DNA of 64,000 nt from Hexactinellida sp. DTS-2022 (lineage: Eukaryota > Porifera > Hexactinellida). Below the pieces are notes generated by a model. The model did no database searches. It was not told where the DNA came from and saw nothing but the letters and a program-made list of their open reading frames with translations. The stretch spans positions 5,459,042 through 5,523,041 of the forward strand of contig JAPNXP010000010.1 of assembly GCA_028753945.1 (NCBI GenBank), given 5' to 3'. This document shows, piece by piece, positions 11,829-55,035 of this stretch (positions are counted from its first letter, which is position 1; each line of letters begins with the position of its first letter). Made by a program: the position numbers and the translations under genes.

Positions 11829-14800
11829 CTAGAACTCTTCTGGATTGAATACTTGTATGCGCTTGTTCTCGCTGTCACAAACCAACAATTGATTTGTAGA
11901 AGACATGTAATGAAGTCCCACGGGAAGTTTGAATTCTCCTAAACCGTCTCCTTCTTGTCCTATTCTCTTCATTCGGATCATATCGCCTTGGTACACTAAG
12001 CATTAGTGATTAACTTAACTTAACTTCATATGACAAGATGCCTGGGGTCCAAGGTATAAATAGGAAAAAAACCCACTTTAATTTTCACTTTCAATTGAAA
12101 TTAAATTAAATTTCACTTTTACTTTCACCTTCAATTGGCAACTAAGAGTTTTAAATACTGTGTCCGTGTAAGTTGACGGTGTAACCAATACAGTCTTAGT
12201 AAGCCAAGAGATATTGTCATAACCTGCTATTCTTAATATATTATGTAAACATCATCCTGTAAATTTGTTCCAAAATACTATCATTATTTTTTTGATAATA
12301 AATCTATGCCTAACAAAGTATAGAATATATCCCATTTTGTGGGGGAAGATAGAATTAATGATGATCTATATACGTATGATTGTAAATGGAAACTAGCGCA
12401 AAATATTGTGATTGTATTTCAGAGTAGATTTGTTTATAAACTAGTCCAATTTCCATACGTTTTCTGGGCCTATAATACAATTGGATGCTACACGTAAAAC
12501 TGTTCTATAAAAACCTGCATTTTGGTTAACCACCTATAATTTTGTGTTGCGCTGAATCCGATATGAGAACAGTACCAGACGGCAATGTACACATTCTGAT
12601 TGGTTGTGTCATTTCCTGTCCCAAGAGACAGCTTCCGAACTGGTATAGAAGATCCCCAGAGAAGTTATATGCGTTAACACACGGGTTGCCATTATGACAG
12701 ACTAGGATGTCATCTTTAGGTCCGATAGCCACTGCACTAGGTAGACGGACCTAGGAGAAACCAATTGTTAAATGAGTACAAGCAATTTCTAAATAGACTC
12801 CTGAGCTTGAGCGAATAATAAGGGGCTGTTCATGACGTTACGTTATGTTTCCGAGGGGGGATTAATTCATTTGAAAAACTATCCTTTTTCATCAGAAAAT
12901 GGTCAGAAAAGCAGAACATAGGGAGGGGATGTTGAGTTTTCGGGAATTTTCGATACTAGTAGGGTCAAAATCTAAGATTCCGTGACCAACCTCGGCAAGT
13001 TAAGTTTTATGCCTGATTCTGATACTTTAGGGAATATCTCGCGATTTAAGCTCCCATGCTGGTCTCGAAAATTTGGGCGAACTTTTTTATAGCGACAAAT
13101 TCAAAGGGTCTCCGGCAATCATTTTGAAAAATTAAGGTCCTCTCTGAATATTTCATAAATTGAGATTATAGTTTTTGAACAGTATATAATAGTACTAGCT
13201 GCACTGAAAATTTCAACTAAATCGGAACTATACTTTTAATGTAATAACCTTTTGAAGATTCTTACGTCATTTGTCATCATAGGAGGTCCATTCCATACTA
13301 TTTTTTGAGGGATTTAAAGCATATCTTATCCTATATACATGCAATAGCCTTTTAACTCGCTATGTATTATGTCTCCATGTAAATAGCGGTAATAGACCTA
13401 AATTTAGCACATTTGACTATACAAAAATTCTAAAATCCAGTCCATTGACGTCAAAATTGTGAAAAAGTGGGCGAAAAAAACGATTATGGGTCAAAGAATT
13501 TCGCTTCGTCATCCCCATGTGAGATCCCCAGAAGAGTCAAAAGTGCTAAATTTAGGTCTATTACCGAGATTTACATGGAGACATACTACATAGCCAGTTA
13601 AAAGGTAATTGCATGTATATAGGATAAGATATGCTTCAAATCCCTTAAAAAATAGTTTAAAGAATGGACCTCCCATGGTGACAAATGATTTAGGAATCTT
13701 CAAAAGGTCATTACATCAAAAGTATAGTCCCGATTTAGTTGAAATTTTCAGTGCAGCTACTACTTATTGTATACTGTTCAAAAACACTATAATCTCAACC
13801 ATAATAGTCTATGTCTCAATTTATGAAATGTTCAGAGAGGGACCTTAATTTTCAAAATGATTGCCGGAGGCCCTTTAAATTTGTCGCTATAAAAAAGTTT
13901 GCCCAAATTTTCGAGACCAGCATGGGAGCTTAAATCGCGAGATATACCCTAAAGCAGGGTTTCATCTAGGCGTACGCGACGCGCCTCCAGGCGCGTAATT
14001 TTGGAAGGAAATTTTTCTAGGCGCGGCGAAAATCGAGAGATGCGCCCATAGACGTAATACAAATTGAATATTTTAGGCGCGTGTGAGCGAGCTCAAACTT
14101 AATCTAGGCGCGTCGAAAATTTTGCCTGGATGAAAGCCTGCCCTAAAGTATCAGAATCAGGCATAAAACTTAACTTACCGAAGGTTGGTCACGGAATCTT
14201 AGATTTTGACCCTACTTTATGTAATGTTTGAACGGTGACTAATACAATTGCATATAGAGTGGCAGATATCTAATTAAGATACACATACATGAAGCCAGGT
14301 CTCAATTTCGATTTAGATCTATAAATAGGATATAAGTAAGAATAATCCTTTATAATATACGTATTATAAAGTGATAGCGATTTACACCACTAAGTTTATA
14401 CAGTAGAAATCGGGGGTTTTTGCCTCTCCGGGTTATTTTGCCTCCTTGCTTCTCCTTGTTTCTTCATAACCTCATAGCACTGTATAATGTTAAATACGGG
14501 TTTTTTTGCGTATCGGGTATGTTTGCCTCTTTTTCCATGCATTTAGGGGGGCAAAAAACCCGATTTCGACTGTAGTGCTTAAAAATTGAGATATTTGGTA
14601 GGATATACTGATTACTATATAGGGGATACTAATAGGCAATAATACAAACTAAAAGATACATTCAAAAGAATTGCAGACAAGCAGTATCCTTCTGACACAC
14701 AACTACAATCCGTCCTGTGTTGTCTAGCACTATTCCCCACGGGCTATAGAACTCCCCAATACCCTGGCCATTCTTCCCAATCCTGTGTATCTCTTCTCCC

Positions 14801-17800
14801 TCCTGATTGAATACACACACACAGTGATTACCGAAGTCACTCATAATGATGTTGTATTCTCTGTCTATGTCGAAACAGTATGGATTGTTTGTTTGCTTAC
14901 CATTGCCACGAGTTATCAGTCTGTTGGTTAGAACGTGATTTGAATCGAACACAAACATACACGGATCACTTTGATCTAGCACCAATACTCTGTCTCGTGT
15001 AACCTTAATATCACGTGGTTGGTTAAACACACCTATTCCTAGCATGGAATGGAACTTGAGATCCTCTGTGAAGATTTGGACTCTGTTATTGTTACAGTCA
15101 CAGACATAGACATCGTTAGTTCTATCAGAGACAGACAGACCGTATGGATAGTTGAACTGAGCTTCTCCACTCCCATTGCTACCAACACTCTTGATTAGTT
15201 TGCCTTCTAGCTCGTACATACTAATACAATGACCACTGTATTGTGTAACTAGCACGCTATTATGAGTTATACAGATACCCACTGGATTATTCATATTCTC
15301 ACAGAACATGAAGAGATAGTCTCCGTTACAGGTAAATACCTGTACTCGATTGTTGCTTAAATCCGCTATGTAAATGTGTCCAGTCTTGTAATGCACTGCT
15401 ATGCCTCTGGGATTATACAATTCTCCAGGAGCTTTCTGTTCGCTAGACTTCTTGCAGCAGTAGGCAGTAGGCAGCCGTTTAGCCTTGTAGTCCGGTACAA
15501 CAGGCTTCACTTGGGGAGAGAAGGTGCGGGTGGGAGATACGTTAGTCTGACCGTTAAGCTTAATACTCCCTAGCTGTTCAATGTCAGTCTCGAATAGACT
15601 GTCCCACTCGAACTCAATGCTACCGTCTGTATCAGCTGTTAGCTCTGTCAGTTTGGTATCGAGTAGTGAGATTATTTGTTCCCGGGTATTAGTCAGCTGA
15701 TTAGCTTTCAAATATTCTTGGTTCGATGATTTTGCGTTTCCTATTGCCTCTGTCAGTTCGTTTTGTAGCAGCAGCTTATGATTGTACTCCTGCTCTATGT
15801 TATCGACCAGAGACAGGAGATAGTTCTCTCTCGCTACTAGAGCTTCATGAGATTTCTTGAAACTAGTTTGAATCTTTTTCCTGGTTTCAGTTATTTGTTT
15901 GCGGAATTCAGTTACAGTATTTTTAGCTGCCATTTCAAATAAATTGTACTTTGCTAATAGTAAATATATACTAATAATATTCAAACTGAAATTTGATCTA
16001 ATCTTAGTGTAGCTAAGAGCCTATAACTAAATGAATTAAGTTACAAATTATATTTAGCTCAATTGAAACAGATCTGTAAAACCTCCTATACAGAGGGTCG
16101 TATTACCACCAAATGTTCAAACTTAGTATCTTAACACTGTACTTAATTAAACTCGTATTGAAGAAACACCTCTCTATAAGCGGATACAAATTAATGTGTC
16201 AGGGTTTTATACAGGATTTTTCTTCAGGGGGGGGAAAGTCTGCTAGTACCAGGATCCACTAAATAATTGCTTCGCCGGCTGGGGGTCTGGGGGGCGCTGT
16301 TAGCCCCCCAGTAGGGTCCAGGGGCGAAGCCCCTGGAAGCCAGATACAATTTATAGTGCAGAGTATTATTGCTAACAATGGAGAGCTATTGCGGTAAATT
16401 AATCAAATAGTATTTGAAGCTGTGGTAACTAATGGAAGATAATTATAGCTTCTGGCACAATTTCATTAATGAATATCACTAGTAATGTTTGAATGGTATG
16501 TGTGGAGAAGATACAGAACTTTTAACATAAAATATTCTAGCCTAGAGAAGAATACGTCGATTTGTCTCTTTATAAAAGGCTAAAAACACCTAATTTTAAC
16601 TGAAAATAAGAACTTAGCAGCATATTTCCAGGGGGGGGGGAACTCAAGCTAGGGGGGGGAAATCCCGGGGCGCCCCCCCTCTGTATAATACCCTGTGTGT
16701 TATGGCCTATCATTGTATAATCCAATATAATCCTGTCTCAAATAAAATTCAATAATACTATATCAAGTTTCCGAATAAACGATATATATTTGCTATTTAG
16801 GCTATAGTATATACATATATACCCATCATATACTTTGTTGTATAAAGAAGGGCATACATGCTTAATGGAGAATTGCTGTGCGTGGAGGTACACATTGAAT
16901 TAGCTAATTTGATAATGACAACCAAAATAACTTAAGGAGTCCAATTTACTTTGGCGTAGCCAAGAATCAGTGCTACGAATTTTTGCTGCTTTTCCAAAAT
17001 TCCATCATCAGTAGGCCCCAGCCTATGCCACTGTTTATCAAAAAATTGTAAAATGTAAGATTGAAAAATATATATAATAACAAACCTTTCCCGGTTTATT
17101 ACCACCGCTACCGATCATATGTGAGAACTTGAGATCGGGAGTGAATACCTGCACCCTACTGTTATGGCAGTCTGCTACCATTAAATGGTTCTGATACACA
17201 CATAGGCCCAGTGGAGTCTGGAACTGACCCTCTCTGGATCCGAAGTACCCCAGATACTTGTAGAACTTACCGCAGCTTTTCTCATACACCTGCAAATAAA
17301 AATTTCATAAATATTGAATACGTATACACTGAATTCCCGTTATAACGAAGTCGGATATAACGAAATAACCGCTTACAACGAATTGGAGATTTTCCCCCCA
17401 GAGCACTAAATGCATTAATTATTATCCGCTTATAACGAATATCGGATATAACAAAGAAATTTACTGGTCCAAAGCACTTCGTTATAACGAGAGTTGACTG
17501 TAGCCCCAATACAATACAAAATTATCACAAACTATCGAAATTATACTTTATTAAATTTATATGCCATTGTTCAAACGTTTCGCAACTCTTCCAAGGTGTT
17601 GTTAACCAATGTGTGACAGACCATCCTTTTGTATTACAAAATGTCAAAAAGCTCAATAGGGAGTGTTGTATGACAGTTTTACTACCATGACAAACCTAGT
17701 TGTGCAATAGTAATATGTGATACGATCAAAGAGCTAGTAATTCTGTCATGGTATACTAGTAATAGAGGTAGTAAAACTGTCATATAACAAGACTATAATT

Positions 17801-19431
17801 TCGCACCATACAGTCAACTCCGCCTAATAGAGCCATCGGTTAATAGGTTTCTCCGCTTAATCGGGTCAAAACAACCTGGTCCGAGGTGGCTCTATTAAGC
17901 GAAGTCGACTGTATTTCATTCTGTTTACTTACTTCAATTCGATGCTCACTGAAAACACTAACGAATATATAAGTGTCAGATATCTTCAGATCTGAGAACG
18001 TCATTGGCCGAGTCGGTCTCTGATGCGATACGACGTCCTTCAGATGTCCCTGTGGATCCAGGATCTTAACACAAGGGTCCACTTCTAGAGATAGGATGTA
18101 CAGGTTGCCAGCTGTATCGCTGTCACATGCCCAGGGCTTGAAAGTGGCGCCGTAGGAAGTGCCGCTAGGGGGGAGGGTCCTCTGAGGGAGAACTGGCGTG
18201 TACGAGATTATCTCAATCTACAGACAATAATAATAGTATGAGTATACGTATACGTATAGTTAGTTAGTTTTCCAGCCCATAGGTAGATATAAGGTGCCGT
18301 TCAAATGCAAATTCGCATAAGTTGATCACCCCCTCCCTATGTCACCATTTTTTTTTTAAAAAGGGAGGGTATGTCACACATTGGCTACCCCGGTACCCCC
18401 TTTGGAAGCGTTATATTACGTAAGTTACGCTTGAATGTCCCCTGTGCATAAAGTATCTTTTTCTGTTTTTCGAGCTTTCTATTCATAGAGTGAAAAGACG
18501 ATTTTTGGCGTTAACTGAGGCTATTCTTTTGAAGTTAGGGGCCATTCAAACGAAATGTAAAGCAAAATTCCCTATATTGGGCACCCCCTCTCTATGTCAC
18601 GCTTTTTTTTTTTTACCTTAGTAGTTAGTACAAATAGGAATACTCCAGGATAAAACTCTAGTCTTTGCCAATACAGTAGATGCCGGTTATAAGAACATCG
18701 TCGGGAACTGCAAATAAGTATTTTCTTATAACCAACATAAATTATATAGGGGTATATGCCAGGCCGGTATCCAGAAAGTGATAGTGGGTGGTGCTATAGA
18801 ATTGCAGGGGGGGGCTGAATCTCATAATTATAAAAAACTAGGCATATTCAACGGAGTTTAATGGGACAGTAAGAATTCTCAGGGGGGGGCCTCAAAGTTC
18901 TCCTCGGCTACGGGCCTGGTATATGCAAACCGTTTTCCCAGTAGAATGTTCTTATAACCGGTGTTCTTATATCCGCCATCTACTGTATAGTATATGGACT
19001 AATGCCAGGAATTAAGAGTTGACTGTGGCCTTTACCTTCCCAACGTATTTGAGTTGGTATAGAAAAGAGCTGTCTAGGAAGAAAGAAATTTGTGGTTGCT
19101 TTTTGACTTCAGTCATTAGGTCCTTCAGTTTGCTATCAACTTCCTGACGCACGTACATCATCAAGTTGTCGCTCTCGCCACTTATCGCTTCGTTGAATGC
19201 CTGTTTTGCTCTGTTTATTACAGAGACCTTGTGTTGTAGTTCTGAAATAGATTTTTCATTGGCGTGTAGTATGTCGTCCAGTTGTTGTAGAATGGCATGT
19301 CTCCTTTCTTCAAGATGTCTGAATAATTGAGAGAACCTAACTTCAACCTCTTCTTTGATTCGTCGTATTATCTCGGAAAATGTGGTAGAACTGCTTATGC
19401 TAGGTGACTGAGGTGGAGAAGGTGTAGCCAT
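11829..19431 (-). CDS. Coiled-coil NHL-repeat protein, five exons (host of a nested NHL gene)
   Basis: Exons, 5' to 3': 19431-19036, 18217-17933, 17289-17086, 12750-12534, 11995-11829. All borders are GT-AG on the minus strand and the joined frame gives 422 residues. Residues 1-130 are an amphipathic coiled coil without RING or B-box; the rest is a beta-propeller of NHL type with blades such as GQFQTPLGLCV...VADCHNSRVQVF and, at the end, LVCDSENKRIQVF. NHL propellers of TRIM/Brat-like proteins bind RNA or protein; without a RING a ligase role is not expected. Intron 3 (4335 bp) contains a whole intronless NHL gene on the same strand plus a long palindrome; introns 1 and 2 contain MITEs E, A and C. 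The model is supported by unbroken NHL periodicity across each junction. The true ligand is unknown. Confidence 0.82.
12959..14215. mobile_element. Long palindromic foldback element, copy 1
   Basis: The two halves are inverted copies of one another: GTAGGGTCAAAATCTAAG at the left end and its complement at the right, with arms of roughly 500 bp around a centre near 13480. A second copy is at 61387-62352. Internal words such as CTCGCGATTTAAGC occur in both arms. No transposase or coding frame is supported. The right arm is interrupted by a hAT-type insertion at 13955-14140. It lies inside intron 3 of the five-exon NHL gene. Confidence 0.8.
13955..14140. mobile_element. hAT-type MITE with 8-bp target duplication
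   Basis: Ends CAGGGTTTCATCTAGGC and GCCTGGATGAAAGCCTG are inverted repeats, and CCCTAAAG flanks both sides (13947-13954, 14141-14148). The interior is rich in GGCGCG. It interrupts the right arm of the palindrome, so it is the younger element. Confidence 0.85.
14401..14572. mobile_element. MITE family D
   Basis: Ends CAGTAGAAATCGGGGGTTTT and AAAACCCGATTTCGACTG with TA on both sides; internal TTTTTGCCTC words. Sister copies at 23816-23899 and 54038-54196. Confidence 0.85.
14662..15933 (-). CDS. Intronless coiled-coil NHL protein A, nested in an NHL-gene intron
   Basis: 423 residues from the ATG at 15933 (an upstream in-frame TTG is not a credible start). Residues 1-100 form a coiled coil (FRKQITETRKKIQ...), a linker follows (FEWDSLFETD, then a Pro/Lys-rich stretch to about 170), and residues 180-423 form six NHL-type blades, for example GIAVHYKTGHIYIAD, VQVFTCNGDYLF and WGIVLDNTGRIVVVC. 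No RING or B-box. It is nearly identical in its C-terminal three quarters to the gene at 59722-60993, while the coiled coils are strongly diverged. Differences between the two cluster beside each blade's Pro and after its Asp. The gene lies on the same strand as its host, inside intron 3, 447 bp from a palindromic element. Binding through the variable propeller face is inferred from NHL structures (Brat, TRIM71 bind RNA there); the ligand is unknown. Confidence 0.85.
   Translation of the reverse strand: MAAKNTVTEFRKQITETRKKIQTSFKKSHEALVARENYLLSLVDNIEQEYNHKLLLQNELTEAIGNAKSSNQEYLKANQLTNTREQIISLLDTKLTELTADTDGSIEFEWDSLFETDIEQLGSIKLNGQTNVSPTRTFSPQVKPVVPDYKAKRLPTAYCCKKSSEQKAPGELYNPRGIAVHYKTGHIYIADLSNNRVQVFTCNGDYLFMFCENMNNPVGICITHNSVLVTQYSGHCISMYELEGKLIKSVGSNGSGEAQFNYPYGLSVSDRTNDVYVCDCNNNRVQIFTEDLKFHSMLGIGVFNQPRDIKVTRDRVLVLDQSDPCMFVFDSNHVLTNRLITRGNGKQTNNPYCFDIDREYNIIMSDFGNHCVCVFNQEGEEIHRIGKNGQGIGEFYSPWGIVLDNTGRIVVVCQKDTACLQFF
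16200..16695. mobile_element. hAT-like non-autonomous element
   Basis: Ends CAGGGTTTTATACAGGA and CTGTATAATACCCTG form an imperfect inverted repeat like that of the element at 35468-35953. The interior has G-runs and GGGGCGAAGCCCCTGG, a small perfect hairpin. The flanks share only TGTGT, so an 8-bp target duplication is not demonstrated. Confidence 0.6.
17327..17500. mobile_element. MITE family C
   Basis: Ends CACTGAATTCCCGTTATAAC and TCGTTATAACGAGAGTTGACTG (shortened), TA on both sides; lies in intron 2 of the five-exon NHL gene. Sister copy at 28405-28767. Confidence 0.8.
17811..17911. mobile_element. MITE family A (short copy)
   Basis: Ends CAGTCAACTCCGCCTAATAG and TTAAGCGAAGTCGACTG, TA-flanked, 101 bp; in intron 2 of the five-exon NHL gene, 21 bp from exon 2. 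Confidence 0.8.
18674..18985. mobile_element. MITE family E with internal insertion
   Basis: Ends CAGTAGATGCCGGTTATAAG and ATCCGCCATCTACTG, TA-flanked. The copy is twice the length of the sister copies (25606-25744, 59186-59325) because of extra G-rich sequence in the middle. Upstream (about 18295-18620) lie degenerate GGGGCCATTCAAACG / CACCCCCTC-TATGTCAC repeats. Confidence 0.75.
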
Positions 19432-29989: not shown

Positions 29990-32922
29990 ATTTCATTGAG
30001 GATTTACAAGCCGTCATACAGACAGACAGTAGTCTATTGTTGACATGGAGCCTGTATAATTCTACGAATATTACAGGATTCTATATCTGCATAAATGGAC
30101 ATCAAGTTGGAATGGTTTGTTTTTGTAATTAAATGCTACGTTGGAAAAATCAGTGGATAGTTATTCATATAATATATTTTATTAGTGTAGTCCTATAAGG
30201 ACAGTAGTCACAGTATACCACAGCTAATTAGGCTAATTGCTATTCTATATCAGTTATGATCTTGCATAGTAATCTTATAGTGTACGTATATAAGTAGTAT
30301 ATTTATGCCAAATGTGTTGGCACAGCTATAATTTTAGATATTTTTCAGATAGGCACTTAAACATTTATTTATTTTCTATATTTACAATTACTAAGAGATC
30401 TAATTATAGAAATTTAGGAAATTAGAGGAGTCAATGTGAAGTAAGGGAATCCACAATTTCCTTCATTATACTATCTATAAATCTTAGGTCCATATTATAG
30501 ACAGTAGACACATGAAATCTCTAAGGTTGAGACCTTGGTGTAACTCAACACTGCAGATGTCGCAACCGACCCGAATCGTGGTGTAACTCCAAAAAATCTT
30601 GGTGCAAAATTTACACCAAGATTGGCCTTAAGGCTATATAAGGGCACTCTCCGAGATAAGGCACATAATTATTATCACGATGATGCCGTATTTCGGAGGT
30701 TTACCTGTATACGTATATTTAATCCAAATATGTTGCCCAGCTGTTTATCTTTGGTTATTACTCTAAAGTTATTTATAAAACTTTACATATACAGTAAGAC
30801 CTCGTTAGTACGAACATGGTTAATATGAATTTCCGGATAAGAGGAACAAACAGTTCCACAAAATCAGGTCCCTATAATGGTTATTCAATGGGTATTACTC
30901 CGGTTAATACGAACTCCGTATAAAGCGAACAACTTTTTACCGTCCGTTGGTGTTCGTATTAACGAGGTTCTGCTGTACACTTCTCTGATTATTTATGATC
31001 CATAATTATTTTTAAATTGAAATACTATAGGCTTTTTGTACGTGCACCTTTAATTCCATGCTTTTATATGATTTGTCATCAATTTCAATGAAAAAATTGA
31101 GCTATAATGTGATATTAATCTATATAGACATATGCATAAAACTTTAGTGACAGGGCCATACTATTTAGCTTACATTTATCAATAATATAATTTAATTTTC
31201 AGTTATTGTTCGAGTTAGTTGTGATGAGGAATAATGAGGAATTTGCAACTTCACTGGTAGCCACATTCCCAACTGTAGAGCTGAGCAAAATTTTTTGCTC
31301 AGCTCTCAACCATGATAGAAGCTTGATACTGATTTATAGTACAAAGATTTATTACAGAAGGCGTACCTTTTTTGGAACTGTGGTGTCTGGGCCACCTATA
31401 GATGAGCATTCTATTGACATATTCACTTTGGAAGGTTATCATGTAACAAGGAAAATAATAATAAAGAAGAAGAGACCGTATTATGATAAAGTGATTTATA
31501 ATATAAGGTTTACAGATCACATGATAATTGTATGTGACGGTTTGTTTAGACCTGCTATTCTAACTGATTTCTCACTTAAATTCCCTTTGTTTGCACACAA
31601 AGTAGTTTTTATTGAGTTCGACGAGACAGGAAATATCTACACTAATGGTGGTGAAAGAAACAAAATTGCTGTTTATTCACAGAATTGGGAACTCAAAGAA
31701 ATGCTAAATATTGACCTACCAGATAATTACATTATCTCCTCTCTCCATATTAGGGATGATACCATGGTTGTACTATCTACGGAGAATACATTTTTTGGCA
31801 CAGTTCGTAGATTTGTCCGATCAACAGGAAAATTAGTAAAATATTTGAAAGTTCCTGAATTTTGTCCTTTGAATGAAATATGTATTGATCAGCTCAGTAA
31901 TATTATTCTTTGCACGGATAATGGAATTCGCATTTGGCAGAAAAATGGCGAATTAGGCCTCATTATGTTTGGAGGAAAACAATATAGTCAAATTCTATTA
32001 ACTAACAATAATCAGTTAATTCTAATTACTCCTAATGGTGTAATTCATGTCCACAGATTAATAGACATTGTTAATTATCTCTGTTGAACATCTCATGAAC
32101 ATTTCATGAACTCTTGTTACTGTGTTGTATACTACCTTAGTTTTGTATCTTTTTCATAATGTTCAATAATTTTGAGGTATTACATTGTTGTATGTACTGA
32201 ATATAATAATATTGTGGTTTGTTTATGAATTATTAGTTATCACAATAGTTTTCCATACAAACTTAATACCGAATATTTGTTTTACCCATAGCTTGTATTT
32301 CCCATCAGGTTAGCAGTAAAAAGACTAAAGCACTTTTAGAAGGACTAAACCCGACAGCTTACTACAAGTGAGTATGTTACATAGATTATGATTATCAATC
32401 AAACCTCGTTCGTACGAATACCAGACCGTCAACATTAATTCGAAGTTAATATTAACCGTTGCATAAAGTTGAATAACCAGAATTAGGAATTTATATTGCC
32501 GTGATCGTACTAATGAGAGGTTTATAGAAGTTATATTTATCAGTTTTGTCTATAATAGGATATGCCTAGTTGAACAAACTTGTATGTCTCAGGCTAGGGA
32601 ATCTAATCCTGTATTCGTCTGTATTAACCAAATGCAATTAATATATCAAGAAAGTAACAAAGATAACCCGATCTCCTTACAGAATGGAGCTAGTAACAAT
32701 AATACTGAATTACAAGATAATTTGAATGAAGATAGAGAGCTTCCTACAAATCAATTTGGTGATGAAGTAGGAATAGCTTTGAGCTCTGTCGAAATAGAAT
32801 CTTGCAATGAAGGGAAGAAGGAGTTGAACAGAACTTACGAGTTAGAGGAACAGCTTATGGAGATTAGACAGCAGTTAACTCAAGGCAGAGATGACACTGA
32901 TCAACAGACTGACTGTATCTAG
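29990..32922 (+). CDS. Partial fibronectin-III-like gene, 3' exons only
   Basis: Three exons join in frame: 29990-30114, 32309-32367 and 32598-32922, with GT-AG borders. The product has an FN3-like pattern split by the first intron: LLLTWSLYNSTNITGFYICI, then after the junction ALLEGLNPTAYY, corresponding to the conserved Trp strand and the Leu-x-Pro-x-Tyr loop of FN3. The last exon is acidic and ends in a short coiled coil (ELEEQLMEIRQQLTQ) and TAG 32920-32922. The first exon needs one base from an upstream exon, which I could not find: PIBF1 stops 110 bp before and has no fitting donor that I trust. It may be a remnant, a gene with distant 5' exons, or an alternative 3' end of PIBF1. Its 2.2-kb first intron contains the propeller gene at 31224-32087. 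Confidence 0.42.
30640..30705. mobile_element. MITE family I, decayed left end
   Basis: Right part ATTTCGGAGGTTTACCTG followed by TA matches the families at 26467 and 35395; left part CACTCTCCGAGATAAGGCAC is diverged. The 3' flank (TATTTAATCCAAATATGTTG) is shared, inverted, with about 35360-35390, so it moved with the propeller-gene duplications. Confidence 0.55.
30792..30975. mobile_element. MITE family B
   Basis: Ends CAGTAAGACCTCGTTAGTAC and ATTAACGAGGTTCTGCTG, TA-flanked, 184 bp; upstream of the propeller gene at 31224. Confidence 0.85.
31224..32087 (+). CDS. Propeller-like tandem family, member 1 (beta type, N-terminus lost)
   Basis: 287 residues from the ATG at 31224. It belongs to a seven-member local family with about six beta-propeller-like repeats, visible as strand pairs ending IDIFTLEGYHV, KIAVYSQNWEL, RRFVRSTGKLV, IRIWQKNGEL and IHVHRLID, and a core FIEFDETGNIYT. 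This copy lacks some 45 bases after the ATG relative to members at 38217 and 46352, so the basic KRxKT-type segment is missing. It contains a small palindrome (GAGCTGAGCAAAA and complement) absent from sisters. The gene is intronless and lies inside an intron of the FN3-like gene, same strand. The family resembles NHL or WD propellers in rhythm, but I cannot assign it to a named family. Confidence 0.68.
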   Translation: MRNNEEFATSLVATFPTVELSKIFCSALNHDRSLILIYSTKIYYRRRTFFGTVVSGPPIDEHSIDIFTLEGYHVTRKIIIKKKRPYYDKVIYNIRFTDHMIIVCDGLFRPAILTDFSLKFPLFAHKVVFIEFDETGNIYTNGGERNKIAVYSQNWELKEMLNIDLPDNYIISSLHIRDDTMVVLSTENTFFGTVRRFVRSTGKLVKYLKVPEFCPLNEICIDQLSNIILCTDNGIRIWQKNGELGLIMFGGKQYSQILLTNNNQLILITPNGVIHVHRLIDIVNYLC

Positions 32923-33090
32923 TTATACCTTCGAACTCTATAGTAGTAGGTTATAGGATAATTATAGTTATTCCACCTATATCACTAATTGTTATCACTT
33001 GTATATTTACAAATAAACAAGTATCCATTGTATCCGTATTTACAGTTACTGGGCTATTAACTGCAGCTGCATGGCTACGTAAACTCCAAC

Positions 33091-33372
33091 TTATGTTATG
33101 TTTGGGAGTATATGTAGTATGTACCAGTGGTCGACAAAACCGTGTTTGGTTGGGAACCTAGGATGGCCACTAAAATCATACTCGTGATGGCATCTATATC
33201 GCGAAGCGACCGATACCGAAGGGCTCGTAGTTATTAAAAACTCTTTACTTGTTGACTGACTCAACTTTTTGAGCTCAATTACAACGCAACCATTTATCTT
33301 GCTTGCAATAGTAGCAGCCTCATTTCCATGGCCACAAACGTCGAGGAACTTTTGAACATTTTCAAGTGCCAC
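33091..33372 (-). other. Unrecognised minus-strand frame, partly repeated elsewhere
   Basis: 93 codons. The first 40 (ENVQKFLDVCGHGNEA...) have a diverged, frame-disrupted counterpart at about 43895-44015 in the same orientation, with ENVQKF and LKKLSQS kept. The last part is a repeat (CAGTGGTCGACAAAA, GATGGC) also found at about 39390-39470, 44470-44545 (inverted) and 47520-47600. It may be a relic exon carried along by the local duplications; no function can be given. Confidence 0.3.
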
Positions 33373-34009
33373 TATCGCCTACAGATATGCGTTCAGAATA
33401 TATGGAGAGGGACATACAGCTTTTGCTCTATTTAGATCTATAGCGATTAACCAAGGAGCAGGTTTTTGGCCTATGTGTCTACTTCTATTGACCTAATATC
33501 TATATTATTACAACTCGATTGTTGTGGTTTGTGTGTTTGTCCGGATTGTATTAATATAGTGATGGGGGTATAGGAACCGCATACATAATTAAGAAATAAA
33601 CTAACTTCCAAATGTCATAATAGGTAAACAAGTATGCCGATTTCGAATTTCACATTTACTAATTTATAATATGAATATTTGTTGTTGTTGTTTACACAAA
33701 TTGGTAAACAAATTAATGAAAATTCAAAATCAACCTAGAAGTTTGCTTTCAACGGATATTAGAATTATTGGTAAACATGTTAAAACTTTGGAAAATGGTA
33801 GAAACTAGAAAGGGTAAGATCTAAGAAGGCCGCATAGCGGCTATTAACTAGAAGTGCGTAGCACCGATCCATCGCAAAGCGACCGAGACCGAAGGGCTCG
33901 TTGACTGAAACTAGAATATCTCTGAAATGAAGTGAGCTAAAGGAAACTTCCAACACACTAAGAGTATTTACGTCAGAAATACCTTTCTGGAATGGTTTAG
34001 CACCTTTAC

Positions 34010-34140
34010 AAAAAATCTAAAATTGCAGCTTTGCCGATAGCAAGTTCTTTTGGAGGCACTATCAAACGAACAACCACCAAAAGATAGTGACTTCAATGGA
34101 ACATGCTGTCGGCACAGTTGCAATTTTAGATTTTTTAGTG
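34010..34140. repeat. Foldback repeat related to the 8455-8720 interior
   Basis: AAAAAATCTAAAATTGCAGC at the left and its complement TTGCAATTTTAGATTTTTTAG at the right (shortened), separated by about 85 bp; GCTGTCGGCACAG occurs as at 8610. Confidence 0.6.
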
Positions 34141-34399
34141 CTAGTATATTTATATTCTTCGTATGGATTAATGATTCAACTGCCGTTCAAGCCACCGTTG
34201 GCGTTCGTTCAGCTCAAGTTCAATAAGTTCGTTCGTGAACATTTCATTCCTGTATACAAGTATAATGAAAAAGATCAATTACAAGAGTTCATAAAAGTTC
34301 ATGTGATGTTTAACAGAGATAATTAACCAGTCTATTAATCTATGGACAATAATTATACCATTAGGAAATATCAGAATTATCTGAGAATTGTATGTTAAT

Positions 34400-35203
34400 A
34401 GAATTCGTTAAATTATTTTGCCTTAAACATGATTCTTCCCATTACGTCATTATTCTGCCAAACTCGAATTCCACTCCTTGTGTTAACAATAGTATTTGTG
34501 AACTGATCAATATAGATATCATTCAAATGCGGGGGATCATGTTCAACAAATTTTTAATTGTTTATTAATTTCCTTGTTGATCTCACAAATCTAGAAATTG
34601 TGTAAACTGGAAGATGGTTGTATGATAGTACATACAACCATGGTATCCTCTCTAATATGGAGAGAGAAGATAACAGAATTATCTGGTAGGTCAATTTCAA
34701 ACACTTCTTTGAATTCCAAATTCTGTGAATAACAGCAATTTTGTCTCTTTCACCAAAAGTATAGATATTTCCTGTCTCGTCAAACTCAATAAAAAATGTT
34801 TTATATCGAGAGAAAGGGACCATATGTGAGAAATCAGTTAGAATAGTAGGTGTAAACAAACCGCCACATACCATTATCATGTGATCTGTAAACCTAACAT
34901 TCCAAAACCTGCGACTAGTATACGTTTTCTGTCCTAGTGTTTTTCTTGTTACATGATAACCTTCTAGAGTAAATATGTCAATGAAACGCTCATCTGAAAA
35001 CAACCCTGATACCCAAGTTAGACGCCATCGGACAAATCCACTTGAACTATAGATCAGTATCAAGTTCCTATCATGGTTGAGTGCTGAGCAAATAATATTA
35101 TTTACAGTTGGGAATGTGGCTATCAGTGAGTTGGAAATCCATCATTATTGGTTTTCCGAAGTTTTGAGTTTCTATCAATATCAACAGATGTAAATCTCTT
35201 CAT
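34400..35203 (-). pseudogene. Propeller-like tandem family, alpha-type pseudogene, inverted
   Basis: Runs opposite to its sisters. The ATG at 35203 opens a copy of the alpha N-terminus (SVDIDRNSKL) but the frame stops after about 25 codons where a base is missing relative to the copies at 36117 and 44741. The middle is readable again (FIEFDETGNIYT at about 34765-34800), then leaves frame around 34735 and returns near 34620. C-terminal sequence can be followed to about 34410. The 5' flank (35204-35460) matches the flanks of the intact alpha genes. This is a decayed host gene. Confidence 0.8.
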
Positions 35204-35394
35204 AAGAAGTAAACAAAATATGGATATTCAATGTTATTCATACAAGTGCAAACAAAAAGCATATAGTATTTCTATGTAAACAATAATTATGGTTCATAAA
35301 TAATAAGAGCATATGCATATGTAGTTTTTCAATTTAGAGTGCTAAACCAAAAGATAAACAGCTGGGCAACATATTTGGTTTAAATATACGTATA

Positions 35395-35462
35395 CAGGTA
35401 AACCTCCGAGATATGCCATCATCGTGAGAATAATTATGTGCCGTATCTCGGAGGTTTACCTG
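35395..35462. mobile_element. MITE family I (68-bp copy)
   Basis: Ends CAGGTAAACCTCCGAGATA and TATCTCGGAGGTTTACCTG are exact inverted repeats with TA flanks. Confidence 0.9.
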
Positions 35463-35467
35463 TATAC

Positions 35468-35953
35468 CAGGGTTTTATCCAGGAGCGACCATACGCCTAA
35501 AGGCGTATAAATTGGGATATGTTTGCGTTTAGGACCCCGAAAACTGCCAAAAGTCTCCATAGAGTAATACAAAACTAACCTTTTAGGCCAGGGGTGTGCA
35601 ACCTGCGGCCCGCAATGCTCTGTGCTGCGGGCCGCGAAGTAATCCTAACAATCACAGATTTCACACTAAGGAACACATATGTGACTTTGTGACAATTATT
35701 AGAATTTTGTGACAATATTTCTCTTACCCGTCAAAATACTTAATCATTCTAATATTTCAAAATTTAAACAATGTTTTCTTCTAATCTAATTCTAAAGATT
35801 CGAAAATATATCCGAATCGCGGCCCGTGAACAGATCTGAGAAGCACAATGCGGTCCAGTGTTAAAAGAGGTTGCACACACCTGTTTTAGGCGTACAAAAT
35901 TCATACTCTAGTGACCTTAGGAGTGTGCTATTCTATTCCTGTATAATACCCTG
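35468..35953. mobile_element. hAT-type element with a second hAT nested in it
   Basis: Outer ends CAGGGTTTTATCCAGGAG and CTGTATAATACCCTG; CTGTATAC duplicated at 35460-35467 and 35954-35961. Inside, 35589-35883 is another element with CAGGGGTGTGCAACCTGCGG and GGTTGCACACACCTG ends and an exact TTTTAGGC duplication on both sides. No transposase frame remains in either. Confidence 0.9.
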
Positions 35954-36116
35954 CTGTATACGTATATTTATTACACTTAACTTAAATAAGTGAAAATTTT
36001 ATACTTCTCTGATTCTTTGTGAACCATAATTATTATTTATATTGAAATACTTTATGCTTTTTGTTTATACTTCTATGAATAACATTGAATGTCATATTAT
36101 ATTTTAGCAACTGTAA

Positions 36117-37019
36117 ATGAAGAGATCTGCATCTGTTGATATTGATAGAAACTCAAAACAGCTGAAAACCAATAATAATGGATTTCCAACTTCACTGACA
36201 GCCACTTTCCCAACTGTAAAAAATATTGTTTGCTCAGCACTCAACCATGATAGGAACTTGATACTGATCTATAGTTCAAATTTTTTTGTTCACCGATGGC
36301 GTGTAACTTGGGGATCAGGATTGTTTTCAGATGAGGGTTTCATTGATATATTTACTCTAGAAGGTTATCATGTAACAAGAAAAACATTGGGGAAGAAGAT
36401 GCATACTAGTCTAAGGATTTGGAATGTTAGGTTTACAGATCACATGATAATGTTATGCGGCGGTACGTTTACACCTACTATTCTAACTGATTTCTCACAT
36501 AAGGTCCCTTTCACTCGATATAAAACATTTTTTATTGAGTTCGACGAGACAGGAAATATCTACACTATTGGTGAAAGAAACAAAATTGCTGTTTATTCAC
36601 AAAATTTGGTATTCAAAGAAGGATTTGAAATTCACCTACCAGATAATTCTGTTATCTTCTCTCTCCATATTAGAGAGGATACCATGGTTGTACTATCTTA
36701 CAACATTAGGCGTATTCATGTTTACACAATCTCTAGATTTGTCAGATCAACAAGGAAATTAGTAAACAATTTTGAATTGGCTGACAATTGTCCCCAGCAT
36801 TTGAATAATATCTGTATTGATCAGTTCAGAAATGTTATTGTTAGCACACGTCTGGGAATTCGAGTTTGGCAGAGAAATGGCGCATTGAGACACATCATGT
36901 TTAAGGCAAATGCATTTATACGAATTCTATTAACAGACAATTCTCAGATCATTCTGATTTTTCCTAACGGTAGAATTAATGTCTATAGATTAATAGACAT
37001 GGTTAATTATCGATGTTGA
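36117..37019 (+). CDS. Propeller-like tandem family, alpha-type member 1
   Basis: 300 residues, intronless. The N-terminus MKRSASVDIDRNSKQLKTNN has two basic clusters spaced like a bipartite nuclear signal and a possible RxxS phosphosite; this is inference. About six propeller-like repeats follow (IDIFTLEGYHV, KIAVYSQNLVF, SRFVRSTRKLV, IRVWQRNGAL, INVYRLID). The copy at 44741-45643 is identical at protein level from about residue 140 onward but differs at about 13 residues before that. About 110 bp of upstream sequence is shared with other family members (TGATTCTTTGTGAACCATAA), probably including the promoter. The role is unknown; a propeller scaffold suggests a binding protein. Confidence 0.75.
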   Translation: MKRSASVDIDRNSKQLKTNNNGFPTSLTATFPTVKNIVCSALNHDRNLILIYSSNFFVHRWRVTWGSGLFSDEGFIDIFTLEGYHVTRKTLGKKMHTSLRIWNVRFTDHMIMLCGGTFTPTILTDFSHKVPFTRYKTFFIEFDETGNIYTIGERNKIAVYSQNLVFKEGFEIHLPDNSVIFSLHIREDTMVVLSYNIRRIHVYTISRFVRSTRKLVNNFELADNCPQHLNNICIDQFRNVIVSTRLGIRVWQRNGALRHIMFKANAFIRILLTDNSQIILIFPNGRINVYRLIDMVNYRC

Positions 37020-37172
37020 ACATCACGTGAACCTTTATGAACTCTTATACAATCAAATCTCCCTTATCCGGGCACTGTCGTCCGCAGGGTGCACATAACT
37101 GGGAATTTTTCCGGATCTCAGTATTGATTGTAATGACTAGTAAGTGCATGTCCAAATCCAAAGTGTCTATTC

Positions 37173-37627
37173 ATGGCCTACTTAATATACGGCCGTGTAT
37201 GTCACCGAGAAGGCCAAAAAAATAGAAGGCCAGGTTAGAAATTTCATTCTAAGCTTAACCGCAATTCTGAGATTCTCAAAAGTGATTCAATTGGTCTCGC
37301 AATGGTTGATTACCCCATAAACAACCCAAATAATAACAATAGGAGGCATAGTTTAGCCAGGGGCGTCCTGGCCATACAAGCCAGCGGGGAATCCCCGCTG
37401 GGCCCCCCTTGCGAGGTTCATAATTTGGGCTCCTAGTTTTATAAGGCCCCCTTGGGGGCCCTTATAAGGCTATTATATCTGTACAAAAGCATAGAAATTT
37501 CCACGATGGGCCCCCCCCTGGCCAGGACGCCCCTGAGTTTAGCTTAGAATGAAATTTATAAACTGGCCTTCTATTTTTTTGGCCTTCTCGGTGACATACA
37601 CGGACGTATATTAATTAAGTAGGCCAT
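37173..37627. mobile_element. Long-TIR element with a nested hAT MITE
   Basis: Arms of about 85 bp (ATGGCCTACTTAATATACGG ... and complement at 37540-37627). The duplicate locus near 45755 lacks the element, so it inserted after the segmental duplication. Inside, 37358-37535 is a hAT-type MITE (CAGGGGCGTCCTGGCC ends) with AGTTTAGC on both sides. Target duplication of the outer element is imperfect (TGTCTATTC versus GGTCAATTC, possibly 9 bp). Confidence 0.8.
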
Positions 37628-37899
37628 GGTCAATTCCATATTTTTTGGATTCTTTCAAACATCATAAAATATTGAAGTAATGGGTTGTGGATAATTTAAG
37701 ATATCACGTATTTGTTTTTTATATTTTTGTCATTAACTCCATTTTTGGTTGAATTAATATATGTTTAGCTTGGATTTACACCAATAAGAGTGCCCGGATC
37801 TCGGAGGTTTGAGTGTACTTATACGTATATAATTTGTCATCAACATTCAATGAATTTTTATATTGTATTGTTAATTTGTATAGACTAGTATAGACATAT

Positions 37900-38131
37900 T
37901 GTATTTCCCCAAATATGCGCCGGGTCAATAAAAATGGCATTGGTATGATTCAATTAAAACACATTTGTTGATGTAATTCCATTGATTTTGGCAACTTCGG
38001 TATGTATACTGTCGGTGAGAACCATTAGAACGGACCTAGATATTTTTTTCTGGATTTTTCAACAAAATTTCAGGATACATTTGGTCCATGAAAACAATAA
38101 GCGCCTGGCGTTTATTCGGTGCAATACGGTA
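37900..38131. mobile_element. MITE family K (GTATTTCCCC...AATAAGCGCC type)
   Basis: Left end GTATTTCCCCAAATATGCGC, right end CGCCTGGCGTTTATTCGG..ATACGG. The same element lies at 46027-46266 in the duplicated block, so this pair is duplicate and not an independent insertion; other copies at 52285-52630 and 58887-59118. Confidence 0.75.
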
Positions 38132-38216
38132 TGCATATAAATTATAGTGACAGGGCCTATATTAATTAGCGACATTTAGCATTATCTGCATCAATTTACT
38201 GTTATTGTTTGTTGTA

Positions 38217-39125
38217 ATGAGGAGATCTGCTAGTGCATTATTTGATAAAAGTTCTAAAAGGTTGAAAACCAATGATGATGAATTTACAACTCTAAGGGTA
38301 GCCACATTCCCAACTGTAAAACTCAATATTAAATGCTCAGCACTCAACCATGATAAAAACTTGATACTGATTTATAGTGTAAATAATACTAACAGAAGTT
38401 TGCTTGGCAGTTTGGGAACTCGGGTGTTTGGGTCACCTATAGAGGAGCGAGCAATTGACATATTTACTCTAGAAGGTTATCATTTAACAAGGATAATAAT
38501 AGAGAAGAAGAAAGTCCGTTATAATCTAATGATTGATAATGTTAGGTTTACAGATCACATGATAATGGTTTGCGACGGTTTGTTTAGACCTGCTATTCTA
38601 ACTGATTTCTCACTTAAATTCCCTTTGTTTGCACACAAAGTAGTTTTTATTGAGTTCGACGAGACAGGAAATATCTACACTAATGGTGGTGAAAGAAACA
38701 AAATTGCTGTTTATTCACAGAATTGGGAATTTAAAGAAGTGTTTGAAATTGACCTACCAAATAATTATGTTATCTTCTCTCTCCATATTAGGGATGATAC
38801 CATGGTTGTTCGATCCAGGCAGAATAATTTTTTTGACACAGTTCGTAGATTTGTCCGGTCAACAGGGAAATTTGTAAAATATTTGAAACTTCCTGAATTT
38901 TGTCCAATGAATGAAATCTGTATTGATCAGCTCAGTAATATTATTCTTTGCACAAATAATGGAATTCGCATTTGGCAGAAAAATGGCGAATTAAGCCCCA
39001 TTATGTTTGGAGGAAAACAATATAGTCAAATTCTATTAACGAACAATTATCAGATCATTCTAATTACTCCAAATGGTGTAATTCATGTCCACAGATTAAC
39101 AGACATTGTTAATTATCTCTGTTGA
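38217..39125 (+). CDS. Propeller-like tandem family, beta-type member 2
   Basis: 302 residues from the ATG at 38217 (an upstream in-frame TTG is not a start). N-terminus MRRSASALFDKSSKRLKTND has the two basic clusters of the family. Blade-like repeats: IDIFTLEGYHL, FIEFDETGNIYT, KIAVYSQNWEF, RRFVRSTGKFV, IRIWQKNGEL, IHVHRLTD. Compared with beta members at 31224 and 46352, the segment after residue 65 (between the first two blades) is the most variable in sequence and length. It is followed at 39688-39729 by a truncated copy of the TRMU start, which shows it is part of a duplicated block. Confidence 0.75.
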   Translation: MRRSASALFDKSSKRLKTNDDEFTTLRVATFPTVKLNIKCSALNHDKNLILIYSVNNTNRSLLGSLGTRVFGSPIEERAIDIFTLEGYHLTRIIIEKKKVRYNLMIDNVRFTDHMIMVCDGLFRPAILTDFSLKFPLFAHKVVFIEFDETGNIYTNGGERNKIAVYSQNWEFKEVFEIDLPNNYVIFSLHIRDDTMVVRSRQNNFFDTVRRFVRSTGKFVKYLKLPEFCPMNEICIDQLSNIILCTNNGIRIWQKNGELSPIMFGGKQYSQILLTNNYQIILITPNGVIHVHRLTDIVNYLC

Positions 39126-39329
39126 ACAAATGAACATTTCATGAACTCTTGTTATTGTGTTGTCTACTACATAGTGAGCCATCTTGAATGACTGCCTTTG
39201 GCTTGTTAGTTATTAGTTTTTAGATTTTAGATAATCCTCTCACAGTCCACAGTTTTATTACTTATTTTGTATCTTTTTCTTTATGTAGTATATTTAGTTT
39301 ATGATTTAGGCGTTTTAAAATTGGATCAG

Positions 39330-39385
39330 AACAGGATTTAGGAGCGTATTTACAAATGGCTGTATAATACACTGTGTGGGAGTGT
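39330..39385. repeat. Repeat family J fragment (inverted)
   Basis: AGGAGCGTATTTACAAATGG and CTGTATAATACACTG match the start of family J in reverse; the duplicate locus has the same fragment near 47450-47505. Confidence 0.6.
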
Positions 39386-39687
39386 ATGTACCAGTGGTCG
39401 ACAAAATCGTGTTTGGTTATGATGTCCACCAAAATGAAGCTCGTGATGGCATTAATAAGCCTATGCTATTTTACTATACGTTCACATGATTAATCACTCT
39501 GAAATAGTTTTCTAAGAACTTTAACAACTTTGTTTGAGCCTCGAGAATGCATTTTAGTGCCTGTGGCTTAGATTTGTCATCAGAAATTTGATTTTGTCGA
39601 GCACTACTCTATGTACGACATTGAATGATAAAAATTATTTCTTTAGCTGGCATAATTAACACACACACGTAGTATATTTAATAGATT

Positions 39688-39729
39688 ATGGTGAGTCGAG
39701 TGCTAGTAGCAATGTCTGGGGGAATAGAC
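39688..39729 (+). pseudogene. Truncated duplicate of the TRMU 5' end
   Basis: 42 bases beginning with the TRMU start codon (ATGGTGAGTCGAGTGC..., ending GGGGAATAGAC) match 47850-47891 with three differences seen, including the second ATG, which is GTG here. The match stops abruptly at a CAGGCTTGGACC sequence. The upstream 1.8 kb is also shared. It marks the right edge of the older duplicated block. Confidence 0.88.
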
Positions 39730-40392
39730 CAGGCTTGGACCGGGTCACGGGTCACTTAATTTGATTGATTCGTTTCTTCACAGTAATGCTAATTAAATTG
39801 TATTGGTTTGTAAAATATAAAACAGAAACATTCATCTAATATTAGTAAGGCGTTTACTATTTATGAGAGATAGTACTTCAATTGAAATACCTAATAATAC
39901 CTGTGTCTCTATTAGAAAATCGGTTTTGTTCATAAATATAATTCATTCATTTATTTTCAATTTATTTCTCAATCTTTTCTTGCAGTCTGGAAAATGGAGT
40001 CTATGTTGTCTCACCTTAATCTGTTTCACCATCTTCATAGCACCAAAAAATCAGTATATTTCTCCCAATTGTTTGGGTCCATATTTGAAAAGTGGCAGTT
40101 AGTCCAGTGATCTTAAAAAAATTTTGTGTTGTAAGTGACAAAATCATACAAACATTTCTTTTGGAAGTCACAAGGATCTATAATTTCTCTTTTCAATGGG
40201 TGTTACTCTTTAGTGATCTTTGTCATCGCATGAACCATTTTCTCCTTAGTCTCCAAAGTAACGTGTTGGTCGAAGAAGGATTGAGCAACTAATTCCTCAC
40301 TTAATCACTTAAGTACCAAAGATGGTTTAAAAAACTTTTAACAGTCACTCTCGATATATCCTCATTGGAGATCCTATACATGTCTAATTGTT
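39730..40392. other. Sequence of uncertain origin after the duplication break
   Basis: Begins CAGGCTTGGACCGGGTCAC, which looks like a hAT end. The minus strand around 40000-40310 has short readable pieces (SEELVAQSFFDQHV, then LYDFVTYNTKFF) with stops between. A decayed transposase is possible, but I see no diagnostic motif. Confidence 0.35.
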
Positions 40393-41843
40393 GGGTCTGA
40401 CTGAATGGTGGAAAATGGTGGAAAACATCCGAGAGTGGTGGAAAATGGTGGAAAATGGTGGAATTTCTGAATTTTCGTCGAAATGACTGAATGGTGGAAA
40501 GTGGTGGAATTTCTAAAAATCGACTGAAAGGTGGAAAATGGTGGAAAATGGTGGAAAATGGTGGAAAACGACTGAATGGTGGAAAATGGTGGAAAACGAC
40601 TGAATGGTGGAAAATGGTGGAAAACGACTAATTTTGCTCAGCGTTCTGCTTCCGGTGCCAACCAGAGTGGACCATGGGCCATGGCCATGGGTCAACATTT
40701 GTGACCCATCACCCATCGTATTTGTTAATCATTGACCCATGACACAATTTACTACTAGGAACCTTTGTTTTGTTATAAAAACTTATCTGAAACAAAGGCT
40801 TATAAACATTCATTATGGTTGTAGATGAATAGATTTTTTAAACATTAAACTAGACCCATAACATAATATGAGTTTACTGATATAAGGAGTAGCTTGGCTA
40901 GTATAACTTTGCTTTACTTAAACTTTACAACTTTTCAAAAACTAAAACTACAGGTAAGTTGGCTCTATGCCTTGGTGTCTATCCGATGCCTTATTTTAAA
41001 AAAAGTATTTTGTTGGGGCTGACTGAATAGTGGAATCTAGTGGAATCTAGTGGAATTACTAAATTTTAGTGGAATCGAGTGGATTTTCTAAAAGCCGATT
41101 GAACAGTGGAATCGAGTGGAATTTGACTGAATAGTGGACGAGTGGAATTTTATTAAATTGTTAAACACTACGTATATGCTATAAGCTACGTGTGTATCAT
41201 ATTACGTTAATTTTCGCCCATGTAAAATTGTTTGCAATGATTAAACTAGTGTTGTGCATGAAGTGGGACAATATGATACTATATTAGTATTCTTACTAAT
41301 CATCTCTATTGAACTGCCCAATGAATACCAACTGGATTTGATAAGGAATTGTTGATAAATAATGTTAATAAGATGTGTCTAAATAACATGGTAACAAAGC
41401 CTAACTAATAAATCCTATTGTGTCACTTCATGCACAACACTAGTTCAATCATTGCAAACAATTTTACATGGGCGAAAATTAACGTAATATGATACACACG
41501 TAGCTTATAGCATATACGTAGTGTTTAACAATTTAATCAAATTCCACTCGATTCCACTATTCAATCAAAGATTCCACTATTCAGTCAGCCCCCGTTTTTC
41601 CACCATTCAGGCGTTTTCCACCGTTTTCCACCATTTTCCACCATTCAGTCGTTTTCCACCATTTTCCACCATTCAGTCATTTTCCACCATTATCCACCAT
41701 TCAGTCGTTTTCCACCATTTTCCACCATTTTCCACCTTTCAGTCGATTTTTAGAAATTCCACCACTTTCCACCATTCAGACATTTCGACGAAAATTCAGA
41801 AATTCCACCATTTTCCACCATTTTCCACCATTCAGTCAGACCC
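40393..41843. mobile_element. Mutator-like foldback element with minisatellite arms
   Basis: Left end GGGTCTGACTGAATGGTGGA, right end its complement; CTAATTGTT flanks both sides (40384-40392, 41844-41852), a 9-bp duplication typical of Mutator-like elements. Each arm (about 235-250 bp) is built of GGTGGAAAAT and GACTGAATGG units. A second inverted pair lies inside at 41015-41592 (GGGGCTGACTGAATAGTGG ends, GTGGAATC units). Frames read through the arms are meaningless repeats. About 385 bp between the left arm and the inner pair includes a GGGTCA/TGACCC-rich segment. No transposase is visible. Confidence 0.85.
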
Positions 41844-42771
41844 CTAATTGTTTTAATAATTGAATTTCCTGTGCTGGGGCATTCGAAGCAGAATTAGCCC
41901 TAACCAGACCTTGATATAGACGCGGACAACAAAGTAACAGATATTCTTCATACCGATTTATTCTACTGTAACAATCTGAATTGGCCTCGATACATCCATA
42001 TCTTGCATAGCGTAGACTCCGGTAGGGCTGGTAGGGCCATGGCCCTACCAATAATTGTCTTTTCTCCATAGAAGCTAACACAAATATGCCAAGATGGCCC
42101 TACCAATCCTAACATCCAGCCTATAAGGGCCTACCAATCTCCAAAACGAGTCTACGCCCCTGTCTTTGGAAATAAATTGCCTTTGCCATTCCACCTTGCT
42201 CTATGTTATGCACCAGGGGCCATTATATCAATTCCACGGGAAGGTATGACACCCAAAAAAATAGTTCATTAAATATCGAAGGTCACGGCCGCTTATATCT
42301 AATTAAATATTGTGGAACCTGATACTCGAGAGATATTCCAAAAGAGGCAATGCAAACTGAGTAATTTAGGCGCTTGACTGAGCTCAAATTAAATCTAGGC
42401 GCTCAAAAAAATGGTCGGTTATGAAACGAAAATTATATAATCCCTCCCTACATCTCATTTTTGCCATTTTGTAATAAAAAAGGATTGGTTGTCACATTGG
42501 TAACACTTACCTCCTTGAGCATTAAAAGGTTACCATGTAACAACAAAGAAGGGGAAATACAGTATAGTATGTTTAACTAAACGTGTCGCACAGCTGTCAG
42601 CATTTATCTATTGGACATCCGTGACTCTCAAAGGAAACATGAATACTTATCTGATTATTTGTGAACCACAACTATTGTTTGCATAGAAATATGTGCTTTT
42701 AGTATGTATGAAGAATATTGAATATGCATATTTCTTGTACGTAATTAATCCCATATTTTGTTTGACCAGTA
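41844..42771. other. Gene-free stretch upstream of the gamma propeller gene
   Basis: Contains a small element with GTAGACTCC and GAGTCTACGCCCCTG ends near 42005-42160 (GTAGGGCCATGGCCCTAC in its left part is a perfect palindrome) and, from about 42655, the family's conserved upstream sequence (TGATTATTTGTGAACCACAA). Confidence 0.5.
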
Positions 42772-43683: not shown

Positions 43684-43754
43684 ACTCCAATAAAACATTT
43701 CATGAAATAATTCATTTCATTATGATCTTTTTATTATGCTATAGAATTTGTCAA

Positions 43755-43912
43755 TACCTAATGAATTTTTTAATAACTATAAAACTTATTAGTATCAACA
43801 TGTGATATTACACTTTAAACAAGTAAATTAATATACTATTTTAAAGTCGTAATATCACATGTTGATTCTAATAAGTACTAATAGTTTTTAAAACTCATTA
43901 AGTGAAGATTGG
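43755..43912. repeat. Near-perfect palindrome of about 155 bp
   Basis: AATCAACATGTGATATTACG on one arm pairs with its complement ATATCACATGTTGAT; arms of about 60 bp around a short centre near 43825. It lies just 3' of the gamma gene and is probably a MITE. Confidence 0.7.
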
Positions 43913-54999: not shown

Positions 55000-55035
55000 T
55001 ACGTAATTGCTTATTCACTGTACATTAGCTATACA

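Follow-up and report, generated by a model that had tools for sequence, protein, structure and literature searches.

In a 64,000-nucleotide stretch of the genome of the sponge Hexactinellida sp. DTS-2022 (assembly GCA_028753945.1, contig JAPNXP010000010.1, positions 5,459,042 to 5,523,041; hereafter the window), we found two paralogous genes, N1 and N2, whose NHL propellers are nearly identical, and whose few differences are mostly amino-acid replacements that cluster on one face of the modelled propeller. The best reading of this pattern is that gene conversion gave both proteins the same backbone and that positive selection then altered the recognition loops on the top face, an account to which, taken as a whole, we give about an even chance of being right.

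The near-identical tract covers 991 bp with 38 mismatches and no gaps (BLASTN, recounted), which bears out the gap-free alignment at an offset of 45060 that an earlier, sequence-only reading of the window had proposed. In coding direction the tract runs from codon 97 to the stop codon, which is TGA in N1 and TAA in N2. Both borders are sharp, and codons 103-175 do not differ at a single base. Ahead of the tract, codons 1-96 of the two genes can still be aligned without gaps and in the same frame, with 38 of 96 residues identical, and by the Nei-Gojobori method (NG86) they have a silent divergence per silent site (dS) of 2.69, a replacement divergence per replacement site (dN) of 0.64 and a proportion of differing silent sites (pS) of 0.73. 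The 1.5 kb on the 3' side of N1 and N2 are unrelated, with chance matches of 11 and 16 bases only. Because codons 1-96 are saturated and the 3' flanks unrelated, we infer that N1 and N2 are old paralogues, related over their full length, in which one segment was homogenised lately. Ectopic gene conversion would explain this most simply, and its right edge would be the end of homology at the stop codon. An origin of one gene by retroposition of the other was set aside, as the N-termini are saturated and no sequence is shared past the stop codon.

Within codons 97-423 the two genes differ at 35 bases, which amount to 23 codons with a replacement and 3 with a silent change (279, 389 and 398), the very figures that had been estimated approximately by hand. 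The multiply changed codons named in the sequence-only reading, CAA/ATG and CAA/TAT, are likewise present, as are the residue exchanges LSNN/EGNH, YPY/CPT and FG/WS; in total, 7 codons of the tract carry two or three base changes. When 35 changes were scattered neutrally over the tract, starting from N1 or from N2 and with a transition/transversion ratio (kappa) of 1 to 4, the expectation was 1.2 such codons, and 7 or more were reached in none of the 5000 runs in each of six settings. The same scatter produced a mean of 7.1-9.1 silent codons against the 3 observed, with a probability of three or fewer between 0.011 and 0.059. Only 2 of the 119 fourfold-degenerate sites in the tract differ. The unreplaced codons that directly adjoin a replaced codon are identical in all bases in 32 of 33 cases, and the changes would therefore have arisen codon by codon on one backbone. 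A patchy survival of ancient divergence, with the loops as unconverted remnants, is rejected at codon resolution by these identical neighbours, as compared with the pS of 0.73 in codons 1-96.

An AlphaFold2 model of the last 264 residues, built from the two-sequence alignment with N2 first (predicted local distance difference test score, pLDDT, 78.7; predicted template modelling score, pTM, 0.82), shows the strand pattern of a six-bladed propeller. Foldseek searches with the N2 model placed the NHL structures of Thin and TRIM71 first, followed by TRIM2, TRIM3 and Brat (E down to 1.1e-18). The NHL family of Pfam matches N1 with E=1e-27 and N2 with E=1e-29, and by sequence the solved structures closest to N2 are those of the TRIM2, Thin, TRIM3 and TRIM71 NHL domains. 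The division of loops into top and bottom that is used for WD40 propellers also applies to NHL propellers. We took the faces from strand order, not from coordinates, and counted D-A and B-C loops as top and A-B and C-D loops as bottom, following the WD40 convention in PMC1805685. Residues 8-263 were assigned in this way; the first D-A loop (residues 8-15) and, in blade 4, strand D were placed manually.

In the model, 15 of the 22 propeller replacements fall into the 76 residues of the top loops (D-A 7/53, B-C 8/23), compared with a single one in the 51 residues of the bottom loops (A-B 0/28, C-D 1/23; Fisher P=0.0019; top loops versus all other residues, P=0.0001). Strand A is replaced at 6 of 38 residues, strands B, C and D at 0 of 91; the 23rd replacement, codon 102, lies ahead of the propeller. 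The modelled positions thus support a concentration of the replacements on one face of a six-bladed NHL propeller, as the sequence-only reading had suggested. That reading had also placed the replacements beside the conserved proline of a blade and after the conserved aspartate. The positions Pro-1, Pro+1, Asp+1 and Asp+2 are indeed changed in 13 of 24 cases, versus 9 of 233 elsewhere (Fisher P 3e-10), a P value to be read beside a register-slide control, as this set was picked when the pattern and the corresponding positions of the fungal protein HET-E (see below) were already known. When the set was shifted by 1 to 10 residues, no more than 5 changed positions were hit. In blade 6 the 'Asp' of this set was placed on Val (codon 412), and in blade 2 on Gln.

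Top-loop dN (0.119) exceeds the dS of the whole tract (0.0265) 4.5-fold (P=0.0009); in the bottom loops dN amounts to 0.008, and in strands B-D to 0. For the entire tract dN is 0.0394, and its ratio to dS (omega) is 1.49. As a local control, a pair of recent duplicates from another family of the window (ORFs, i.e. open reading frames, at 36117 and 44714) gave a dS of 0.035 and a dN of 0.019; this control is rough, since the pair was picked out of 15 because its dS is similar, and in other pairs of that family dN comes close to dS.

Several observations speak against conversion followed by selection, or weaken its support. The bootstrap interval of the whole-tract omega is 0.74-4.74, and 14% of the resampled values do not exceed 1; omega is thus not significantly above 1 and falls short of the 'well above 1' that the sequence-only reading had named as support. 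Top-loop dS is raised as well (0.065, from 2.67 changes on 43 sites), so that the ratio within these loops, calculated from very few changes, is only 1.8. Silent changes are fewer than neutral drift would leave, in the direction that had been claimed, but taken alone this shortage is borderline and no proof of positive selection; it is the clustering and the position of the changes that provide strong evidence against chance. One of 255 circular shifts attained the observed top-loop count of 15, and among the replaced codons, 331 belongs to a bottom loop and 267 is located within strand A. The faces depend on strand order, the strand limits on one two-sequence model with some limits set by hand, and the whole comparison on two sequences.

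The strongest competitor, which we consider possible but distinctly less probable, is a templated exchange in which short top-loop variants were copied among many family members on one homogenised backbone, which would make the loops reshuffled sequence and not new mutations, and in which selection may still act. The multi-base codon changes would fit such copying, as would the 5 adjacent pairs of replaced codons, where 1.8 are expected (P=0.026). Two of the three silent changes also lie within two codons of a replacement, but this proximity is not significant (P=0.10). One conversion event is already part of the account that we favour. All donors, however, would require the same backbone, because 32 of the 33 neighbouring unreplaced codons are identical, and no donor was found in viral and prokaryotic collections: there was no pattern match in the viral contigs, and 7 and 128 pattern stretches in prokaryotic genome contigs yielded none that was confirmed. 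As the collections searched were viral and prokaryotic, this absence of relatives says little. Mutation with selection and exchange with donors of the same backbone are indistinguishable from two sequences only.

Neutral drift of tolerant top loops under relaxed constraint, after the duplication or conversion, appears unlikely. A whole-tract omega not significantly above 1 and a local top-loop ratio of 1.8 from few changes are what it would predict, but the same domain has replacements at 15 of 76 top-loop residues and at 1 of 51 in the bottom loops, and the 4.5-fold excess of top-loop dN over tract dS also argues against it. We regard a mutator targeted to top-loop codons, for example one resembling a diversity-generating retroelement, as very improbable: the packing of changes into few codons could be its work, but the base spectrum is unbiased (changed bases A 12, T 10, C 7 and G 6 in N1, and G 12, A 11, T 8 and C 4 in N2), with 16 transitions and 19 transversions. 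Targets of diversity-generating retroelements carry adenine-biased substitutions, whereas N1 and N2 show none; adenine-targeted mutagenesis was rejected on this spectrum, and no search was aimed at a reverse transcriptase or template repeat. An artefact of assembly or haplotypes is scarcely credible, since N1 and N2 are two intact ORFs that lie 45 kb apart in one window and have different N-termini and flanks; nothing positive points to it, and the comparison comes from one assembled sequence only.

Under the favoured account of conversion and selection, two old paralogues that combine a helical-looking N-terminus with an NHL propeller, and in which no RING or B-box is detectable, would lately have become near-identical in linker and propeller. 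The codons of the D-A and B-C loops would afterwards have been altered repeatedly on this common backbone by diversifying selection, almost without change in strands B-D and the bottom loops. The product could be a recognition protein that uses a TRIM-like N-terminus for assembly and the top face of its propeller for a variable ligand, more probably a protein than an RNA backbone. Only NHL, DUF5128 and SGL were matched in N1 and N2 by Pfam at E<=0.001, which was also the cut-off for the RING, B-box, coiled-coil, NACHT/HET and WD40 results below. No RING or B-box match was obtained in either gene, and upstream exons may encode these domains; the N1 ORF extends upstream past its ATG as far as a TTG at 15984. 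Codons 1-96 look helical by eye only and have no coiled-coil match in Pfam.

For the NHL proteins Brat and LIN41, the RNA-binding face is the top surface of the propeller (PMC9070667; PMC5908797, in excerpt), and the sequence-only reading had considered RNA binding by analogy with Brat and TRIM71. This analogy is weakly disfavoured by the residue counts of the top loops, which comprise 5 Lys and Arg and 6 Asp and Glu in N1, and 7 of each kind in N2. Because these loop counts contain no basic excess, a protein ligand seems likelier than RNA.

By sequence and by structure, N1 and N2 are closest to the TRIM-NHL proteins (TRIM2/3, TRIM71/LIN-41, Thin, Brat and Mei-P26), with which they share the six-bladed NHL propeller. 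The class VII TRIM architecture to which they are compared has a coiled coil ahead of the propeller, and an N-terminal RING and B-box, which could not be detected in N1 and N2. In the TRIM-NHL literature, as far as its available excerpts extend, we found no account of diversification between near-identical copies.

A comparable arrangement is offered by the fungal proteins HET-D and HET-E, which consist of WD40 repeats with NACHT and HET domains. Neither NACHT/HET nor WD40 domains were matched by Pfam in N1 and N2, which, going by their domains, are not members of this family. In HET-D and HET-E of Podospora anserina, positive selection acts on WD40 codons 7 and 9 (d-a loop) and on codons 25 and 27 (b-c turn), pairs that flank conserved sites at the top of the beta-propeller, and copies are homogenised by exchange, with repeats swapped within and between genes (PMC1805685, in excerpt). 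The same D-A and B-C loops vary on the top face of N1 and N2, a likeness of position only, and the blade proline is kept. In the fungal genes the repeats within one gene evolve in concert, whereas the six blades within each sponge protein differ widely (the blade alignment reveals no near-identical repeats inside either gene) and homogenisation would have occurred between two genes. The fungal pairs flank the conserved site, whereas Pro-1 and Pro+1 are both changed in 1 of 6 blades here, and selection was tested on 69 repeats in the fungus compared with one pair in the sponge. Teleost finTRIMs and TRIM5alpha have a C-terminal recognition domain under positive selection, and the finTRIMs form a multigene family (PMC2657112, in excerpt). 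They are TRIM-type proteins, but their recognition domain is B30.2 instead of NHL, RING and B-box are present, and the evidence is family-wide. A diversification of the NHL face of this kind is undescribed in the titles and abstract openings of the literature matches listed.

The coordinates of both genes and their parts are compiled in the table. Around N1, NHL-like exon fragments lie on the minus strand at 17041-17304, 12529-12750 (weak) and 11832-12002, together with a helical-looking minus-strand ORF at 19012-19431; they may perhaps belong to another multi-exon NHL gene that holds N1 inside one intron. An element with inverted-repeat arms, possibly of the foldback type or similar to a miniature inverted-repeat transposable element, has one copy just 3' of N1 (12957-14216) and another just 5' of N2 (61385-62352). 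Other genes in the window encode SMC, MED10, CFAP161, ATG8 and AIG1 proteins. Two adjoining ORFs of AIG1/GIMAP-type GTPases are situated in 1-2526, one weak and below the Pfam cut-off (65-1189), the other strong (1543-2526). The SMC protein (54922-58557; 1211 aa) is encoded by a single uninterrupted ORF, which at this length is unusual for an animal gene. The tandem family that provided the control pair occupies 31206-47251 and comprises six intact ORFs, each roughly 300 aa long (31206, 36117, 38205, 42772, 44714 and 46304); a shorter minus-strand ORF at 34554-35063 looks related by eye. Two full-length copies were scanned and had no Pfam family above the cut-off; several pairs have dN and dS values near each other (e.g. 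0.277 and 0.281), a stretch near residues 55-75 varies in length, and the structure model is of low confidence (pLDDT 52.8, pTM 0.56).

Table. Positions in the window of N1, N2 and their parts (aa, amino acids).
Feature	Positions	Strand	Description
Gene N1	14662-15933	minus	uninterrupted 423-aa ORF from ATG; helical-looking N-terminus and six-bladed NHL propeller
Gene N2, paralogue of N1	59722-60993	minus	single uninterrupted 423-aa ORF
N1 NHL propeller, codons 160-423	14665-15456	minus	contains 22 of 23 replacement codons
N2 NHL propeller, codons 160-423	59725-60516	minus	region modelled (Foldseek, AlphaFold2)
Near-identical tract in N1	14656-15646	minus	codon 97 to just beyond stop; BLASTN
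Near-identical tract in N2	59716-60706	minus	BLASTN
N1 N-terminal part, codons 1-96	15646-15933	minus	homologous to N2, silent sites saturated
N2 N-terminal part, codons 1-96	60706-60993	minus	homologous to N1, silent sites saturated

We tentatively suggest, as a possibility and not as the probable case, that NHL-propeller proteins form a multigene family in this animal lineage and serve it as a variable recognition repertoire in immunity or in the distinction of self and non-self, with a gene-converted backbone and diversified top-face loops. If so, sponges of this lineage would have reached the same solution with NHL propellers that fungi reached with WD40 propellers. If the pattern holds across the family, the principle of a fixed propeller backbone with a variable top face, known from the WD40 incompatibility genes of fungi, would also apply to NHL proteins of animals. 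N1 and N2 would then provide a concrete candidate for variable recognition beyond the immunoglobulin, B30.2 and leucine-rich-repeat systems.

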